Positions 9,436-17,106 of a stretch of 64,000 bases of DNA are shown here, one piece after another. Source of the stretch: Thiosulfatimonas sediminis (GTDB taxonomy: Bacteria; Pseudomonadota; Gammaproteobacteria; Thiomicrospirales; Thiomicrospiraceae). Each line of letters starts with the position of its first letter. The stretch's first letter is position 1. Both the position numbers and the translations under genes were made by a program. Location: the NCBI RefSeq assembly GCF_011398355.1, contig NZ_AP021889.1, forward strand, positions 2,170,001 through 2,234,000. Direction: 5' to 3'. The notes beneath the pieces were generated by a model. That model worked only from the letters and a program-made list of their open reading frames with translations. It searched no databases and was not told the DNA's origin.

Positions 9436-9466
9436 AAAAAATCCCGCTTAAAGCGGGATTTTTTTG
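9436..9466. terminator. Bidirectional intrinsic terminator after argF
   Basis: AATCCCGC pairs with GCGGGATT around a short TTAAA loop, with six A on the left and seven T on the right. It can stop argF on + and any transcript leaving the IS island on -. Confidence 0.88.
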
Positions 9467-9482
9467 TTTTACCAACCCTTTT

Positions 9483-9488
9483 TAATTA
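9483..9488. repeat. Left flank TAATTA of the IS5 element
   Basis: TAATTA directly abuts the left IS5 end; an identical TAATTA follows the right end at 14873-14878. All or part is the probable target duplication. The sequence is palindromic, so the exact boundary is ambiguous by a few bases. Confidence 0.6.
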
Positions 9489-9577
9489 GTCGGCTCTGAA
9501 TAACACCTTTTTGAGGCGATTCTAATGGTGGTAGCTTAGTACTTCGATGCAGTTCTTCTCATTTGCCACCCAAAAAT

Positions 9578-10546
9578 CTAGGCGATAAAAAGCTCCCGTA
9601 GGAACTTTAGGAGTAATCTCAGGTTTTGGCCAGCGCCACAGAGCAACGCAAACACACTGTCCCCTTGCTCACCTTTCAAGCTACAACGATTTAATCGTCC
9701 CTCGGTTTTCATATGACCAATGGTCGGCTCAATCGCACTTCGGCGTTTGAGCTTTTTCTTTAGCGACGCTGTCATGCCTCTTCTTTGACCAGCGATGTAA
9801 ACCTTTGTATCCGTGACGGCGTGACCTCGATAGCCTTTATCGACAAACACTCTTTCAACAGTTGTTTCGGTCAATTGTTGTGTTTGTTCAATGGCTTCCA
9901 CTAAGCTGTGGCCGTCATACGGGTTATGAGGCAGGTTTTTCATTCCAACCACCAGACCCTCTTTTAAGGTGGTGCTCACCGAGACTTTGGTACCGAACTC
10001 GTAAGGTTGACGCGCTTTGCCTTTCGCGATGCATTTCACTTCAGGGGCATGCAGGCTGTAGCATTTGTTCTTGTCTTTAGGCTGTTGATCTTTCACTTGC
10101 TTGGCCAGTGCAATCAGAACAGTCATCTGAGGACTTAACTCGGTGGCTTTACGTTCAATGTCCCGAATAATGCGTCCTAAGCGACTACGCTGTTTTTTTA
10201 AACTGGTACGCATTCGTTTGAATTGACGAGCATGGGCATAACGTGCGGTTTTAATCGCTAGGAGGGGTCCTATTCGATTGTAATTTTGTCGAAGTGCAAT
10301 CCCTTCTGCATCCGCTTGCTTGACCAGTTTCTCTCGTGCTTTCTCAATGAGTTTTGAATCGGTCGGGTAGGTAATCGCTTTTTCCATTACAGTCGTGTCG
10401 ACAATCACCTCTGTAAAACTTTTGGTCGATACCATGTTGGCGGTCAGTGCAGCACGAATGCTCGCATGGAGTAGTTTTTCAATCTCTTTTACGCCTAATC
10501 GTTTACGCCAACGCACCAGAGAACTCGGATCAATCGGTAATTCATG
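9578..10546 (-). pseudogene. IS5-family transposase, C-terminal part
   Basis: The reading frame from HELPIDPSSLVRWRKRLG onward contains the catalytic DDE residues: Asp in IVDTTVMEK, Asp in VFVDKGYRGH and Glu in RRSAIEPTIGHMKTEG, as in IS5-group transposases. The N-terminal part lies about 3.9 kb away at 14447-14759, beyond the IS66 insertion. The frame remains open into the IS66 end as far as a TTG, but that is a junction artefact. No full-length protein can be made, so it is inactive. Confidence 0.9.
10539..10546. repeat. IS66 target site duplication, left copy
   Basis: AATTCATG lies immediately outside the left IS66 end; the identical 8 bp is at 14447-14454. Eight base pairs is the known duplication length for the IS66 family. 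Confidence 0.92.
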
Positions 10547-10561
10547 GTAAGCGTCCGGCAA

Positions 10562-12136
10562 TCACCGGTTGCTAGGCTGCCACTTGTGCGGTAGGAGTTG
10601 GTCGATTTGACTGGCTTTATGGGTGGGTAAGCGTTCAAGCACGTCTTTGAGATAGGCGTAAGGATCCAGACCATTGTTTTTAGCTGATTGAATCAAGCTC
10701 ATAATATTCGCCGCACGTTGACCACTGCGTAAACTGCCGGCAAACAGCCAGTTCTTGCGACCTAACGCCCAAGGTCGGATTTGATTTTCTACCCAGTTAT
10801 TATCGATGGGCAGGCGGCCATCTCCAAGGTATCGGCTTAAGGCATCCCAACGTTTCAGGCTATAGTGAATCGCTTTTTCCGTTGCCCCACCTTTGGGCAC
10901 TTTTTCTCGATGGACCTGCAGCCATTTGAGCAGCAGGTCCATAATCGGTTTGGATTTTTGCTGCCGGATGATCTGTCGTTCCTCTGGGGCTAAGGGTTGA
11001 ATCTCTTTTTCAATGGCGTAAAGTTGCCCCATTAGTTCAATGGCTTGAATGGCAATCGTGCTTTTGCCGCTTTCATGCAGTTCCACGAACTTACGACGGG
11101 CATGCGCCATGCAACCGACTTCGCTCACGCTTTGTTTAAAACTGGCTTTGTACCCAGGATAGTCATCACACACCAGTGCGCCTTTCCAGTCTTGTAGGAC
11201 TTCTCGTGCAAACTTGCCGTTTCGCCCTTCACTAAAGTGGTAATACACCGCCTTATGTTGTGCATTGGCTGGATTGGTGTAGGCCCACAGATAGGCTTTA
11301 TGGGTTTTCTTATTCCCCGGCTTGAGCATGGGCACTGGGGTTTCATCGGCGTGCAAGACCGGTTGCGTCAGCAAAAAGTCTTTGAGTGCTTGAGCCACCG
11401 GTTCGAGTTGAACACCACAGACGCCAACCCATTCAGCTAAAGTGGAACTGGGTAATTTAACACCGGCCCGTTCAAAGATCTGAGCTTGACGATACAGCGG
11501 TAAGTGATCAGCGTATTTGGCGATGAGCAGATGTGCGAGTAACCCAGAGGTTGGCAGACCTTTGTCAATGATTTGTGGGGGCATCGGTTTTTGAACCAGA
11601 GTTTCACAGGCATCGCACGCCCATTTGGAGCGAATATGACGTTCCACTTGAAACGTCCCGGGCAGATAATCCAGCTTCTCACTGACGTCTTCACCAATAT
11701 GGCGTAATTGACAGCCACATGAACAGGTGGTGGATTCGGGATCATGACGGATGTCAAGACGAGGTAGGTTTTCGGGTAGCGGCTGACGCTTAGGTTTTTT
11801 CTTTGGTTGCGCTGTGTCGGTTTTGTCTCTAAGCGCATCCAGTTCCGATTCAATCGCCGCAATGTCGGCATCGGTCACTTCATCCAACAGTGTCATCTGT
11901 AAGGCGCTGATCTGTTCACTTTTGTGTGAGAATTTTAAACGTCTCAGATACGCCAACTCATGCGTGAGTTGATGGATTTTAAGATCTTTTTGTTGCAGCG
12001 CTTTGGTATTGGCCGCAATGCGTTGGTCTTTTTCTTGAAGACGAGCTTCTTGAGTCTCGACCTGAATGAATAACTGCGCCGCCAGTGTTCGTAACTGGTC
12101 GGCAGAGAGTTGATGGAGGTTTGGCATTGTTTTCAT
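10562..12136 (-). CDS. tnpC: IS66 family transposase TnpC
   Basis: A 524-residue DDE transposase. It has an N-terminal coiled-coil-like region (residues 10-90), a zinc-binding pair (CSCGC near 139 and CDAC near 175), and catalytic motifs LHADETPVP, VCDDYPGY and NNWVENQIRPWALGRKNW, the last two carrying the second Asp and the Glu. It is full-length and open. The IS3 insertion separates it from tnpB and its original promoter, so expression is probably reduced or now depends on sequence within the IS3. Confidence 0.93.
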   Translation of the reverse strand: MKTMPNLHQLSADQLRTLAAQLFIQVETQEARLQEKDQRIAANTKALQQKDLKIHQLTHELAYLRRLKFSHKSEQISALQMTLLDEVTDADIAAIESELDALRDKTDTAQPKKKPKRQPLPENLPRLDIRHDPESTTCSCGCQLRHIGEDVSEKLDYLPGTFQVERHIRSKWACDACETLVQKPMPPQIIDKGLPTSGLLAHLLIAKYADHLPLYRQAQIFERAGVKLPSSTLAEWVGVCGVQLEPVAQALKDFLLTQPVLHADETPVPMLKPGNKKTHKAYLWAYTNPANAQHKAVYYHFSEGRNGKFAREVLQDWKGALVCDDYPGYKASFKQSVSEVGCMAHARRKFVELHESGKSTIAIQAIELMGQLYAIEKEIQPLAPEERQIIRQQKSKPIMDLLLKWLQVHREKVPKGGATEKAIHYSLKRWDALSRYLGDGRLPIDNNWVENQIRPWALGRKNWLFAGSLRSGQRAANIMSLIQSAKNNGLDPYAYLKDVLERLPTHKASQIDQLLPHKWQPSNR

Positions 12137-12154
12137 GCCGCGGATTATAAAGAC

Positions 12155-12446
12155 TGAACTGGTCTAATAGCAGTGGACACTTTTATAAGAGACAATAGAT
12201 GTTGTCGAACTAGGAGTGATCATGAGTCAAAAGAGAACTTATAAAACTTACACCGATGAGTTTAAAAAAGAAGCCGTCGCGTTGGTAACGGATCAAGGTT
12301 ACAGTGTGGCAGAGGCGGCTGAATCCTTAGGTGTCAGAACGAATTTGATTTACAAGTGGAAAGAGAAGTTTGAAGCCCAAGCCAATGGGTCAGCACTGAG
12401 TCAGGATGAACGCGCTGAGTTGAAACAGTTGCGCGCTGAAAACAAG
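12155..12446 (+). mobile_element. Truncated IS3-family left end (292 bp)
   Basis: Starts with the IS3 terminal sequence TGAACTGGTC and runs through the first part of orfA, then meets the start of a second, complete IS3 copy. It is nearly identical to 12447-12738, with only about three internal base differences and one at the junction. It encodes orfA residues 1-77 (12216-12449) and lacks orfB. Confidence 0.88.
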
Positions 12447-12449
12447 TGA
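12216..12449 (+). pseudogene. Truncated IS3 OrfA (helix-turn-helix)
   Basis: The first 77 residues of an IS3-type OrfA with the helix-turn-helix region SVAEAAESLGVRTNLIYKWKEKF. It stops at a TGA formed where the next IS3 copy begins (AACAAG then TGAACT). The leucine-zipper part and the frameshift region are missing, so it cannot give OrfAB. It differs from the complete copy by Ala to Gly near residue 59 plus a silent change. Confidence 0.85.
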
Positions 12450-12507
12450 ACTGGTCTAATAGCAGTGGACACTTTTATAAGAGACAATAGATGTTGTCGA
12501 ACTAGGA

Positions 12508-12804
12508 GTGATCATGAGTCAAAAGAGAACTTATAAAACTTACACCGATGAGTTTAAAAAAGAAGCCGTCGCGTTGGTAACGGATCAAGGTTACAGTGTG
12601 GCTGAGGCGGCTGAATCCTTAGGTGTCAGAACGAATTTGATTTACAAGTGGAAAGAGAAGTTTGAAGCCCAAGCCAATGGGTCAGGTCTGAGTCAGGATG
12701 AACGCGCTGAGTTGAAACAGTTGCGCGCTGAAAACAAACGCTTAAAACTCGAAAAAGAGATCTTAAAAAAAGCTTCAGCCCTTCTGGCGCAAGACATCCG
12801 ATAA
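12508..12804 (+). CDS. IS3 family OrfA
   Basis: 98 residues with an N-terminal helix-turn-helix (DNA end recognition) and a C-terminal Leu/Lys-rich coil (residues 66-90). A TTAAAAAAAGC run at 12763-12773 offers a slippery site; orfB lies in the -1 frame and is open from that point, so a fused OrfAB transposase by programmed frameshifting is expected, as is known for IS3 elements. AGGAG precedes the start (ATG at 12514; ATG at 12508 is annotated but lies close to the AGGAG). Confidence 0.9.
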   Translation: MIMSQKRTYKTYTDEFKKEAVALVTDQGYSVAEAAESLGVRTNLIYKWKEKFEAQANGSGLSQDERAELKQLRAENKRLKLEKEILKKASALLAQDIR

Positions 12805-12815
12805 CGTTTTCATTC

Positions 12816-13676
12816 ATGGATGAATTGATTCAGGAGGGCTTGCCAGTTAAGCCTGTGAGCCAAGTGTTGAAACTCAGTCGTTCAGGCTATTACGCATGGA
12901 AAAAACGACCTAAAAAGGTGATCAAGGCAGAACAACTTGAACTCTATCGTACAGCCAAAAAGCTCTTCAAAGAGAGCCGTGACAGTTTGGGCTCTCGTGA
13001 ACTCGCCAAAGCCCTTCGTAAGGCTGGGTTTCCCGTCAGCCGAGAGAAAGCACGTCGGCTCATGAAAACACTGGGATTAGTCGTCAAGCAGCGTCGAGCT
13101 TATAAAATAACGACTAAGCGTAACCTGACACATCGAGTGGCGGATAACTTGGTCAAGATGAAGTTCAATCCAAGCGCGATGAATCAAGTTTGGGCAGGCG
13201 ATATTACCTACTTGAAAACACCTGAAGGTTGGCTGTATTTGAGTGTCGTAATGGACCTGTATTCTCGCCGCATTATCGGTTGGGCCGTGAGTGAAAGAAT
13301 GACGGTCGAACTCGTCATGCAATCCTTGCAGCAAGCGTATTGGCTACGAGGGCATCCCAAAGGCGTGATTTTTCACAGTGATCGTGGTTCTCAGTACACG
13401 AGCAAACGTTTTGCCACGCTGCTAGCCAAGCAAAATATGACCGCATCGATGGGCGATGTCGGAGCCTGTTGGGATAATGCCGTTGTTGAACGATTTTTTG
13501 GCAGCTTAAAACATGACTGGCTGTTTAAAGCCTATCATCCAACACGCGAGAGCATGAAACAAGACGTAGCGGATTACATGCGTTACTACAACTTAAAAAG
13601 GCTTCATACTGCGAACGGTGATTTAACGCCGATTGAGTATGAAAATTGTAAAAAAACAGTGTCCAAAAAAGCTTGA
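12816..13676 (+). CDS. IS3 family OrfB (integrase-like transposase domain)
   Basis: 286 residues with an HTH_21-type N-terminus and an rve integrase core. The DDE motif appears as WAGDITYLKTP, FHSDRGSQYTS and NAVVERFFGSLKHD. It is in the -1 frame relative to orfA and open back to the A-run near 12765, so it is probably translated mainly as the OrfAB fusion. It appears intact, so this IS3 copy could be active. Confidence 0.93.
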   Translation: MDELIQEGLPVKPVSQVLKLSRSGYYAWKKRPKKVIKAEQLELYRTAKKLFKESRDSLGSRELAKALRKAGFPVSREKARRLMKTLGLVVKQRRAYKITTKRNLTHRVADNLVKMKFNPSAMNQVWAGDITYLKTPEGWLYLSVVMDLYSRRIIGWAVSERMTVELVMQSLQQAYWLRGHPKGVIFHSDRGSQYTSKRFATLLAKQNMTASMGDVGACWDNAVVERFFGSLKHDWLFKAYHPTRESMKQDVADYMRYYNLKRLHTANGDLTPIEYENCKKTVSKKA

Positions 13677-13686
13677 CCAGAACACA

Positions 13687-14016
13687 CTAACTCAGTGATA
13701 AGGAAGTCTCGAGCCGTTGCCAAGGCAAGCCCTGCATCAGTGCCAGACATTGTTCAGGGGAGAGTGTCACGGAATCGCCGCGCCACAGCTCAGCCCAATG
13801 GAATTTACCTTGATTCAAACGTCGAGCACAGAGCCAGATGCCTAAGCCATCGTGGACCAATAACTTCATTCGATTGCCGCGCTTATTGGCAAACAGATAC
13901 GCATGATGGGGTTTGGCCTCACCAAACACGGCAATGACACGAGCTAATGCGGTATCGGGTCCTGCACGCATATCCATGGGTTCAGTCGCCAGCCAATAAT
14001 GATCAATGCGAATCAT
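13687..14016 (-). CDS. tnpB: IS66 family accessory protein TnpB
   Basis: 109 residues matching the IS66 Orf2/TnpB family: an MDMRAGPDTALARV segment near the N-terminus and AYLFANKRGNRMKLLVHDGLGIW in the middle. Its start overlaps the tnpA stop (ATGA). The stop codon TAG at 13687-13689 lies only two bases from the IS3 end, so the IS3 entered just after the gene without breaking it. TnpB is known to be needed with TnpA and TnpC for IS66 transposition; its biochemical role is unclear. Confidence 0.92.
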   Translation of the reverse strand: MIRIDHYWLATEPMDMRAGPDTALARVIAVFGEAKPHHAYLFANKRGNRMKLLVHDGLGIWLCARRLNQGKFHWAELWRGDSVTLSPEQCLALMQGLPWQRLETSLSLS

Positions 14017-14363
14017 GACTGCACCGACTTGACAAAGGCGCTTAATTTGGCCAATTCTGTGACAGGCCAGTGCACAGCAATCTTGCCTTGAGGTGCAGGC
14101 AGTTCGACCAAGAGCGTTTGAGGCGATGACGGCGGCAGATCGTTCAAGACCAGCGGAATAAATGCCGCTTGGGAAGCATGGCGCTTTTTAAGCTGACGCT
14201 TCCAGTTTTGTATTTGATTGGCGTTGATGCCGTAGTCCCGAGCGACTTGTGCAATCGAGGTGTTAGGGTCCTCGCAAGCGGTCAAAACCTGCTGTTTGAA
14301 TTCCCGTGAGTAGCGACGGCGAATCTTTTTGACTGTGGGAAGCGTTGATAGAGAGTCTGTCAT
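14013..14363 (-). CDS. tnpA: IS66 family accessory protein TnpA
   Basis: About 116 residues of an IS66 Orf1/TnpA protein with a helix-turn-helix (SIAQVARDYGINANQIQNWKRQL, residues about 37-59). The ATG at 14363 (MTDSLST) was chosen over an in-frame GTG at 14393. Just upstream, GTGCCCA and TGGGCAC (14369-14375 and 14387-14393) form a 7-bp inverted repeat that could fold in the leader RNA. The gene overlaps tnpB by four bases. Confidence 0.88.
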   Translation of the reverse strand: MTDSLSTLPTVKKIRRRYSREFKQQVLTACEDPNTSIAQVARDYGINANQIQNWKRQLKKRHASQAAFIPLVLNDLPPSSPQTLLVELPAPQGKIAVHWPVTELAKLSAFVKSVQS

Positions 14364-14446
14364 AATAAGTGCCCATTTAAAATACGTGGGCACCTAATTA
14401 TTCACAGATAAGTATGGTTGGTAAGAGGTGTTCACCGGACGGTTAC

Positions 14447-14454
14447 AATTCATG
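14447..14454. repeat. IS66 target site duplication, right copy
   Basis: AATTCATG, identical to 10539-10546, directly outside the right IS66 end and inside the IS5 transposase reading frame. Confidence 0.92.
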
Positions 14455-14759
14455 TTCAAAATACACACGACCACAAAATACTGGTAGTAAGGTGATTGCA
14501 GATAGGCCTCTAGGACGCCTTCATCACTGTGTCCAAAAAGATGCTGCAAATAAAACAGTCCAGCAATCAAGCGAGGCGGTGTTGCCGGACGTCCCGTTTT
14601 TGAGGGGAACAAGTCTGACCAAGAATCAAATTGTGACCAGTCAATCAGGTTGGTGAGTCGGGTGAGCTCATGGTCGGGATTAATAATGTCACAGAGCAGA
14701 GGGCGAAATAGATCGCGATTATGAGTCTCTTTTGGGTGAGTTTTAGGCTTCATGGTCAT
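14447..14759 (-). pseudogene. IS5-family transposase, N-terminal part
   Basis: Encodes the IS5-type N-terminus (KPKTHPKETHNRDLFRPLL, then RPATPPRLIAGLFYLQHLF and YLQSPYYQYF), continuing at 10546 after removal of the IS66. Joining the halves at the single AATTCATG does not restore the frame: one T appears missing in the TATTTTGTGG run, because TAT TTT TGT GGT would give YFCG and lead in frame into EHELPIDPSS. So there are two lesions: a one-base deletion and the IS66 insertion. The start is ATG 14759 or 14753; no clear ribosome binding site. Confidence 0.85.
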
Positions 14760-14814
14760 CAAAAATTGCAAGAAACAAAGTTCAAATTATAATGAAACTT
14801 GCAATTTTTGACAG
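14760..14814 (-). promoter_or_regulatory. IS5 transposase promoter inside a 13-bp inverted repeat
   Basis: On -, CTGTCA (14814-14809), 17 bp, then TATAAT (14791-14786). The arms CAAAAATTGCAAG (14810-14798) and CTTGCAATTTTTG (14772-14760) are perfect inverted repeats around the -10, the second ending at the start codon. A transcript from this promoter begins after the first arm; one reading in from outside contains both arms and could hide the start. Confidence 0.6.
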
Positions 14815-14871
14815 GCAAAATCACGCCAAACGCTATAACCCGTATGGGCTTACGGGGTTATTCAGGATCGA

Positions 14872-17106
14872 CTAATTAGCTGGGTCTGTAACAGTTATAA
14901 AGGCTGTTGATTTCTTACCTGATGGTGAAGTCACCGTAAATTCAACCGTTCCTAAATCTGTCTCTGCATTATCTGGGCTTGATTTAAGCACCATAAAAAA
15001 CTCGGTATGACTTAAAGTATTGTCAATGGTATCAATCGGTAAATCCGTCAACTCACCCACATCTGCGGTAACTTCAATGCTCGATCCGGTAGCAGGTGAT
15101 TGACGAACTGCAACCGTGCAAGTAGCATCATTTGGATTAACTGCCTCAACACGAATTAACGGATCATCTTCTGTACCTGCTCCGCTTCCATCATGACACA
15201 ACGCTGCAGTATCCTCAGCCATCAACCAAATTACAGCAAAATCTGCACCGGTATTGAAATTGATATTAGAAGAACAAGTACCATCATTCTTAAACTTACC
15301 ATTCGCATCTAAACAACTGGCGCCTGTGGTCGCTTGAATGTAAGTTCTTGCATAAGAATCCGCCATAATCAAAGTTGCCTGCCCGCGAATATGAGTCAAT
15401 GTTGTCTCAACCACCTCTGAATCAGGGCAAACACCAAAACCATTTGGATCTTCACAAGGTACGCCATTGAAAGTTCCATCGGCCAAATCAAACGCTTGGT
15501 TACTGTTGTAATCAATGAAACGCTCATCTTTAGCAAAAGTCGATGCTGAAGGATTAAAGTGACCACTTTCATCATCATCGCGATAGGCCTCGGTCATATC
15601 ATCAAAAGCCGGCGTATCAGCAACGCCGTCATTGCCCTGATAATCAAAACCGTCGTCAAAGACACCGTTAGCATTAATATCGTAATAAGTTTCGTGACCG
15701 ATCGCATAGGCGATAATTTGCACACGGTGATCTGCAGGAACAGGGTTTTGACTGCGCCAAACTACCGAACATTGACTTTCAACCGTTTGACAAGAACCGT
15801 CTGAGCCGCCGTTACCGATGCTACCTCCCTCAGTCGTGAAATTTACAACCGTTCCATCAGGAACATCGTTATTATTACGGTCTGCCAAAAAGACCGTTAC
15901 AGGCACTTCAACACCAGCAATCAAACCACTACTCCCTCCCGTCTCAGGAGCAAAAGTCTCGAGTGTTAGAGTAAAACTATTTTGGTCAGGAATGCCGGTC
16001 GTCACAGTTAGTAAATCAGACTGAACAAACACCGTGTCGCCACTTTCAAGCGTCAACGTTGCAGTGACACGCACAGGTGTAGGAATTGTACCTGCTTGAA
16101 CTGTTGTAGATGCCTCACCACTGATATTGGATTCAACTGAAGTTTCAGAAAGCGTAAGCCCACCGACAGCAGTTGACAACTCAAAAGTTACATTAGCACC
16201 TTGAACAGCATCGCCGTTATCATCGACAACTTTGAAAATAACCTGTGAAGTCTCACCATAACCAACACCGCCCGTTCCTTTCAAAGAAATTAATGTTGGC
16301 TCAGCACTGATAAATTGTATAGACGCTGCTGGAATGTCTTCGCCTTCATCAATCGTATTCGTGGCAATAAATTCGTAATTGACAGAAGCAGAAACCCCTG
16401 TTTCTGAGGATGCTGTAAAAGTTCCAGGAGCAGTACCGGAAGTTAAGTTATCCGGCGCAAGAATATTTACGCGAGCCTCACCGTTTTCATTGGATAAAAG
16501 TGTCCCTTGACTCACACTGCCGGACGTGGCTGAAACATTTATCAAAGTTTGAGGAATGGGATCGCCATTAGCATCTAACAATAAAATATCAACGTTAAAA
16601 TCTTCTTTTGATGAATAGGTCGCCTCGCCAGTGGATGCAACCGTTAATGATAAGTTAATCCCCGCAGTAGCGGTATCCCCACCAGCTCCCTCGACTGTCG
16701 TTCCAGCTAAAAAATCATAATTTAAGGTCGCTGTATCACCAGAAGCGGCAATAATCGTTAAAGTCCCAGAAGTATCACTTGTTAAACTAGAAGGAGAGGA
16801 GAGAAGAACTGAAGCTTCACCATTTGAATTTGTCGTGACACTTGAAGCAGATAGCGTACCGGAGGTTGCTTGCAACACCATTGCGACATTCTTATACGCA
16901 ATACCATCACTATCCAACAAGGCTAAATAGACAGTTGCATCATCGCCAGCAGGAATCGTGGTTGTTTCTGCACCATCAACAACCATTTTGGTATTGACGC
17001 CAGCGACAACACCATCAAAGTTTTCTGGGCTTCCCCCACCACCACAGCCACTAAGTAAAATGGTTACAAAAACAATCAAAAAACTTAGTATGGCTGGGGC
17101 TTTCAT
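14872..17106 (-). CDS. Large Ig-like-domain lipoprotein
   Basis: 744 residues. A lipoprotein signal peptide ends in the lipobox LSGC (Cys21), followed by a Gly-rich linker. Three to four bacterial Ig-like (Big-1/invasin type) beta-sandwich repeats follow at about 35-135, 148-250, 262-372 and 375-490. After these comes an Asp/Asn-rich section (about 490-570) with DINANGVFDDG and DYNSNQAFD, resembling calcium-binding EF-hand/dockerin loops. Several Cys could form disulfides. It starts three bases after recR. Its final stop base is supplied by the IS5 end; without the IS the frame would stop at the same codon (TAA). Probably surface-exposed; ligand unknown. Confidence 0.8.
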   Translation of the reverse strand: MKAPAILSFLIVFVTILLSGCGGGGSPENFDGVVAGVNTKMVVDGAETTTIPAGDDATVYLALLDSDGIAYKNVAMVLQATSGTLSASSVTTNSNGEASVLLSSPSSLTSDTSGTLTIIAASGDTATLNYDFLAGTTVEGAGGDTATAGINLSLTVASTGEATYSSKEDFNVDILLLDANGDPIPQTLINVSATSGSVSQGTLLSNENGEARVNILAPDNLTSGTAPGTFTASSETGVSASVNYEFIATNTIDEGEDIPAASIQFISAEPTLISLKGTGGVGYGETSQVIFKVVDDNGDAVQGANVTFELSTAVGGLTLSETSVESNISGEASTTVQAGTIPTPVRVTATLTLESGDTVFVQSDLLTVTTGIPDQNSFTLTLETFAPETGGSSGLIAGVEVPVTVFLADRNNNDVPDGTVVNFTTEGGSIGNGGSDGSCQTVESQCSVVWRSQNPVPADHRVQIIAYAIGHETYYDINANGVFDDGFDYQGNDGVADTPAFDDMTEAYRDDDESGHFNPSASTFAKDERFIDYNSNQAFDLADGTFNGVPCEDPNGFGVCPDSEVVETTLTHIRGQATLIMADSYARTYIQATTGASCLDANGKFKNDGTCSSNINFNTGADFAVIWLMAEDTAALCHDGSGAGTEDDPLIRVEAVNPNDATCTVAVRQSPATGSSIEVTADVGELTDLPIDTIDNTLSHTEFFMVLKSSPDNAETDLGTVEFTVTSPSGKKSTAFITVTDPAN

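Follow-up and report, generated by a model that had tools for sequence, protein, structure and literature searches.

A symmetric dyad set at a fixed distance from the left tip of ISPna3-like IS5-family elements is a candidate protein site overlapping the transposase promoter

IS10 and IS50 are protected from transcription entering from outside by inverted arms that bracket the start of the transposase gene (tnp), such that only read-through RNA contains both arms. At the left end of the P element, internal transposase sites overlap the promoter. Within the IS5 family, passages of one report describe the Escherichia coli IS5 copy at nmpC as transcribed from an outside promoter, PnmpC, and as the only E. 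coli IS5 copy with detectable ins5A mRNA (PMC11677980). The likeness between E. coli IS5 and the element described here consists of the family name and a DDE transposase. We analysed an inverted repeat (dyad) around the presumed tnp promoter of an ISPna3-like IS5-family element in Thiosulfatimonas sediminis. It resembles the IS10/IS50 arrangement in that its arms bracket the tnp start region and masking of the start is predicted in this copy; it differs in that the IS tip is the point from which its arms are spaced, and in that they persist even where they are unable to mask the start. As at the P element left end, the tnp promoter is overlapped by an internal site through which recognition of the end and repression would be linked, although here the element is a bacterial IS5-family one and the predicted site is a symmetric dyad found at one end only. 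In the literature that we searched, no paper dealt with a site of this kind in the IS5 family, and none was returned for ISPna3.

The window (the whole 64-kb stretch of DNA that was analysed) carries this element on its minus strand at 9489–14872 (Table 1). Its assignment to the IS5 family, part of the original prediction, is confirmed by the presence of both DUF772 and DDE_Tnp_1 transposase domains and by the terminal inverted repeats and short target duplication (TAATTA repeats) expected of ISPna3-like members. The element is the outermost of a three-element nest, in which an IS3-type element lies within an IS66-type element that lies within the IS5-family element. As the IS66-type element cuts the transposase gene in two, the copy has apparently lost any autonomous activity; relatives with an intact gene exist. 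No second copy of this tnp promoter region was found in the same genome, which does hold an approximately 50-bp palindromic relic built of the tip sequences of this IS (L016, about 1504–1553), the left part of which is identical to the IS tip except for one base and which has neither dyad nor gene. Judged by matches to its left end, the IS66-type element is multi-copy in this genome: the last 66–77 bases of that end (14380–14446) recur at 14 further sites (L002–L015) with 91–97% identity, and there are two weaker matches (L017 and L018). Directly before the full first reading frame of the IS3-type element (12508–12804) stands a second, truncated copy of it (12216–12449).

The first base of the IS left tip is the G of the TAG stop codon of a lipoprotein gene, which is oriented towards tnp and in the same direction, as had been stated at the outset. 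On the right side of the IS these bases would read as a TAA stop in an identical position, and after it comes a bidirectional terminator-like hairpin (9436–9464), now separated from the gene by the IS. The end of the lipoprotein is unchanged, but its likely terminator now lies beyond the element. With the tip inside the lipoprotein stop codon and the terminator-like hairpin beyond the IS, read-through from the lipoprotein gene into tnp is plausible.

Minus-strand positions 14759–14811 form a perfect 14-bp inverted repeat (arms of 14 nt each, 100% complementary) with TATAAT inside its 25-nt loop. The original prediction had placed the −10 TATAAT between the arms of a 13-bp inverted repeat ending at the tnp start codon. 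The repeat is real but one base longer, and the −10 does lie between its arms. Its end does touch an ATG, the final base of arm 2 being the A of ATG 14759–14757, but the likelier tnp start appears to be the in-frame ATG at 14753–14751, which aligns with the start (MKPK...) of the closest relative, L020 (74–75% identity to the N-terminal part of the transposase); ATG 14759–14757 is the alternative. Folding of 14740–14860 (plus strand) gave −32 kcal/mol (z −3.85), with 1 of 200 shuffles at least as stable. Perfect inverted repeats of 13 bp or more, with a loop of at most 60, number three in the window, this dyad included, against 0, 1, 0, 0 and 0 in five Markov-1 random sequences. No known RNA family matched near the dyad in 14000–15300 (a single chance match lay elsewhere, E 1), and no terminator was found near it in 14700–14960. 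Close to the left tip, on its inner side, 14836–14856 form a small hairpin, ACCCCGTA/TACGGGTT, and hairpins of different sequence occupy this place in several relatives.

Table 1. Features of the IS5-family element and its dyad (window coordinates)
Feature	Position	Strand	Remark
TAATTA direct repeat, left side	14873..14878		Target duplication or outer part
IS5-family left tip, GTCGATCCTGAATAA	14858..14872	-	Inverted match to right tip; conserved in 66-row left-end alignment
-35-like CTGTCA	14809..14814	-	Spacer 17
Arm 1 (upstream in tnp direction), TCAAAAATTGCAAG	14798..14811	-	14 nt, complementary to arm 2
Arm 1 conserved core TTGCAAG	14804-14798	-	68 bp from IS left tip
Dyad loop	14773..14797	-	25 nt; 24 or 25 nt among relatives
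-10-like TATAAT, presumed tnp promoter	14786..14791	-	Loop positions 7-12
Arm 2, CTTGCAATTTTTGA	14759..14772	-	Conserved core CTTGCAA 14772-14766
Transposase N-terminal part, DUF772, from likelier ATG	14447..14753	-	Pfam PF05598
Nested IS66-type element splitting transposase gene	10547..14446	-	8-bp repeat CATGAATT at 10539-10546 and 14447-14454
Transposase C-terminal part, DDE_Tnp_1	9578..10546	-	Boundary set by 8-bp repeat
IS5-family right tip	9489..9504	-	Inverted match to left tip
TAATTA direct repeat, right side	9483..9488		Target duplication or outer part

Relatives were sought in 142 genomes, in a genome-contig scan (12 loci), in 398 genomes of the phylum, in further sets of 289, 349 and 295 genomes and in 25 plasmid regions. 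This gave 121 loci with a usable N-terminus, 113 of them with enough upstream DNA, and 79 relatives below 80% identity; copies of the window itself (L001 and L019), regions more than 80% identical and loci with too little upstream DNA were excluded before counting. Start codons were assigned by rule. The results of a free best-stem search lacking a fixed core spread across registers, and we turned instead to a core-plus-spacing search for two 7-mers, 24 or 25 nt apart, scored on pairing and on a motif matrix. With this matrix, which was trained on the same elements as it scored, 65 of the 79 distinct relatives had dyad scores above 7, as did none of 395 shuffles and 1.9% of coding segments; the arms, whose absence from related elements had been named beforehand as grounds for rejecting the original prediction, are thus kept in most of them. 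The remaining 14 relatives fell below the threshold, and among the looser failures L021 and L056 (at threshold) GACCAG ... CTGGTC can be seen by eye at 25 nt. The dyads of L108 and L051 are probably misplaced.

The core most often reads TTGCA[A/G]G ... C[T/C]TGCAA, and some clades have other cores with the spacing unchanged, for example CTCCCGG ... CTGGGAG (L105) and TTGCCAG ... CTGGCAG (ISXca5, L132). Named elements with homologous transposases, ISPna3, ISXca5, IS1478, ISRm12 and ISRsp18 (L072, L132, L134, L133 and L135), share the 24/25-nt dyad with the window element but differ in their arms (ISPna3 TTGCAGG, ISXca5 TTGCCAG, IS1478 CTACCAG, ISRm12 CTGCCGG and ISRsp18 TTGCAGG), and their arm 2 lies 7–73 nt from the ATG.

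The distance of the dyad is fixed to the IS tip and not to the ATG. Tips were located with a matrix built from ten tips read off these same elements, by which arm 1 lay 67, 68 or 69 bp from the tip in 55 of the 57 elements with a strong tip and dyad; the two exceptions were at 78 and 114. Taking all 65 dyads, 60 were at 67–69 bp from the left tip and one, L131, a natural case of +11, at 78, and for four the best tip match was elsewhere (30, 97, 114 and 184), although for the last of these, L141, inverted-repeat comparison gives 67. Between tip and dyad the sequence itself is unconserved, with a median pairwise identity of 32% among the 61 elements at 60–84 bp, and in the same elements arm 2 lies anywhere between 3 and 88 nt from the ATG. 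Because the dyad matrix had been trained on the elements that it scored, we also applied a tip-anchored test that uses no dyad matrix, demanding at least 6 of 7 pairs at offset 67–69 with a spacing of 24 or 25, and a hold-out run. The tip-anchored test found the dyad in 65% of 69 left ends, compared with a mean of 1.0% (maximum 16%) for 534 other blocks. Right ends in general lack the dyad (3% of 70 by the same test), and 14 of the 70 hold a half-site-like word.

As the offsets had been picked after viewing the data, the hold-out search covered 239 and 219 further genomes. It gave 19 new loci, 17 with an N-terminus and 16 with upstream DNA, of which 13 were used; the removals were two repeat copies (L161 and L174), L156 (the same as L021), L167 (contig edge) and two loci lacking an N-terminus, and nine more loci, already seen or the window's own, had been set aside beforehand. 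At least 6 of 7 pairs were present at the predicted place in 10 of the 13; the misses were L152, L153 and L159. The geometry could in principle be kept by descent only, through a lack of indels and with no function, and the relatives do share an ancestry that shuffles do not model. Arms, tips and spacings persist, however, while the sequence between tip and dyad has diverged to the extent given above, and indels have been free on the other side of the dyad; we consider descent alone to be highly improbable. The remote relative L026 (28% identity) has a 10-bp inverted repeat with a 26-nt loop that covers the ATG and a TATAAT that touches arm 1, a layout that matches the one originally described for the window yet lies outside the geometric rule.

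Of the 50 near-start elements, 26 have their best −10-like hexamer beginning within the loop, at positions 8–16 from arm 1, where shuffles predict 3.6, and 15 hexamers score high at exactly one register. The −10 in the loop suggests that native tnp transcripts would start after arm 1. Some members have the −10-like hexamer just upstream of arm 1, and this is where the best one lies in 5 of the 14 elements of the distant-ATG set (1.5 expected), none of which has a high-scoring −10 at the loop register. The overlap of dyad and tnp promoter is thus a property of about half of the near-start elements and is absent from the distant-ATG clade; with no −10 in the loop there, promoter control cannot be the function of the dyad in that clade. 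Two other promoter arrangements were considered and rejected. An outward promoter with arm 2 as its −35 can be written for the window (TTGCAA-N16-TATAAT), but scored above 4 in 8% of 50 relatives versus 7% of shuffled loops, and arm 1 as the −35 of an inward promoter was found in 2% of relatives.

Under the logic of IS10 and IS50, as originally proposed for this locus, RNA begun at the native promoter would be devoid of arm 1 and open at the start, and RNA entering from outside would carry both arms and hide it. For the window copy such a fold is predicted, the cost of opening the region around the start being 13.2 kcal/mol in the read-through RNA versus 4.3 kcal/mol in the assumed native RNA. 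Over the 50 near-start elements, read-through RNA was on average 3.0 kcal/mol harder to open at −18..+9 than RNA with a scrambled arm 1, in a region that by construction includes much of arm 2; at the same region there was no effect in the 14 elements with the ATG at least 45 nt from arm 2. At −12..+6 the mean effect was 3.1 kcal/mol (p 0.02) in the 13 elements with arm 2 3–12 nt from the ATG, a group to which the window belongs (9 of 13 above 0.5 kcal/mol and 3 of 13 below −0.5), and there was none in the 37 elements at 13–23 nt (mean −0.33, p 0.67). Hiding of the ribosome-binding site or start by the fold is therefore not family-wide. The group at 45 nt or more includes L108 and L118, the assigned starts of which are probably wrong, leaving 12 elements at 60–88 nt that still keep the dyad; 11 of the 12, in the tree, form one clade (support 97) and their named hosts are alphaproteobacterial. 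Four members of the distant-ATG clade (L053, L079, L135 and L147) have a second hairpin near or over the Shine–Dalgarno region, for example TCCATCGCCG/CGGCGATGGA in L147.

The pattern of substitutions in the arms also bears on whether RNA or double-stranded DNA is recognized. Symmetric positions covary, with 380 of 462 core cells Watson–Crick paired versus 323 expected from the columns. G-U pairs (38 seen, 50 expected) and A-C pairs (24 seen, 34 expected) are depleted alike, as a double-stranded site predicts; selection on RNA should spare G-U, and relative to expectation the dyad mismatches showed no preference for it. Read-through protection as the general explanation would fit the −10 in the loop, the rises in opening cost at both regions and, in the window, the terminator-like hairpin beyond the IS. 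It is opposed by the lack of effect in the 37 and 14 elements, by the amount of arm 2 contained in −18..+9, by anchoring of the dyad to the tip rather than the ATG, by the absence of a G-U preference and by a loop of 24–25 nt that a hairpin does not need, and we regard it as unlikely. What the −10 in the loop, the conserved arms and the predicted fold of this copy leave of the original proposal is that the IS10/IS50 logic may hold for the window copy and a minority of relatives.

A combination of the two, with a tip-measured protein site in all members and additional selection for RNA masking where arm 2 touches the start, would account for the strong masking in the 3–12 nt group, window included, and for the 13–14 perfect pairs on the dyad axis of the window, L138, L048 and L141, where the median is 7. 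Long stems are also found far from the start, however (87 nt in L141, and 50 nt by the assigned start in L118), and this combination seems to us rather doubtful.

The type of half-site follows the transposase tree, with at least 10 changes on 67 rows, and one 14-member clade (support 100) contains IS1478, ISXca5 and the CTCCC type. A single host family (f84) carries both half-site types (9 TGCA and 4 TGG), and one core is common to elements of alpha-, beta- and gammaproteobacteria and of a Saprospiraceae bin (L038). Symmetric sites overlapping promoters are typical of host repressors, and the dyad might by that token be bound by a host protein, either a regulator or an architectural one, instead of the transposase. 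Given half-site types that track the tree, two types within one host family and one core across such different hosts, a protein specified by the element appears to fit the dyad better than a host protein; with the tip distance fixed as well, we think a host protein very unlikely. Such a protein would most likely be the transposase. An AlphaFold model of the L037 transposase was too poor to reveal a DNA-binding domain (mean pLDDT 45.6), and no solved structure gave a convincing match (best E 0.36). The half-site is not obviously repeated in the tip or the right end, which weakens the case for recognition of tips and dyad by the same protein.

From the symmetry, spacing, fixed tip distance, left-end-only occurrence and −10 in the loop, all of which are computed, we infer binding of a protein, its identity as the transposase and repression. 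The dyad would be a subterminal protein site measured from the tip, probably the transposase's own, that overlaps the tnp promoter, RNA protection being a by-product in some members; we give this reading a probability of about 0.5. Weighing against it are the 14 relatives that fall below the dyad score, the three misses among the hold-out elements, the lack of a −10 in the loop of the distant-ATG clade and the relic with tip sequences but no dyad. Two half-sites (the core TTGCA[A/G]G or its clade version), with centres 31–32 bp apart, would lie on the same face of the DNA about three turns from each other, positioned 67–69 bp inside the left tip, and a dimer or pair of subunits of the element-specified protein could occupy both. 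Since most members have the −10 and the predicted transcription start between their arms, a protein bound there would switch off the tnp promoter (autorepression) and would also identify the left end to the transposition complex. Where arm 2 abuts the ATG, as in the window, read-through RNA would fold over the start as a secondary effect.

More tentatively, and as a possibility that goes beyond the site itself, the left-end-only dyad may act as a ruler-like switch across a large group of the IS5 family, in which bound transposase silences its own promoter and distinguishes the left from the right end. If this is true, expression and asymmetric end assembly would form one switch. Inverted arms that flank a tnp promoter are not necessarily an RNA device, the telling measure being their distance from the tip and not from the start codon, and the geometric rule is simple and applicable to new elements. 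On present sequence comparisons, the dyad points to a conserved control site, so far undescribed in the literature searched, in a widespread group of IS5-family elements.
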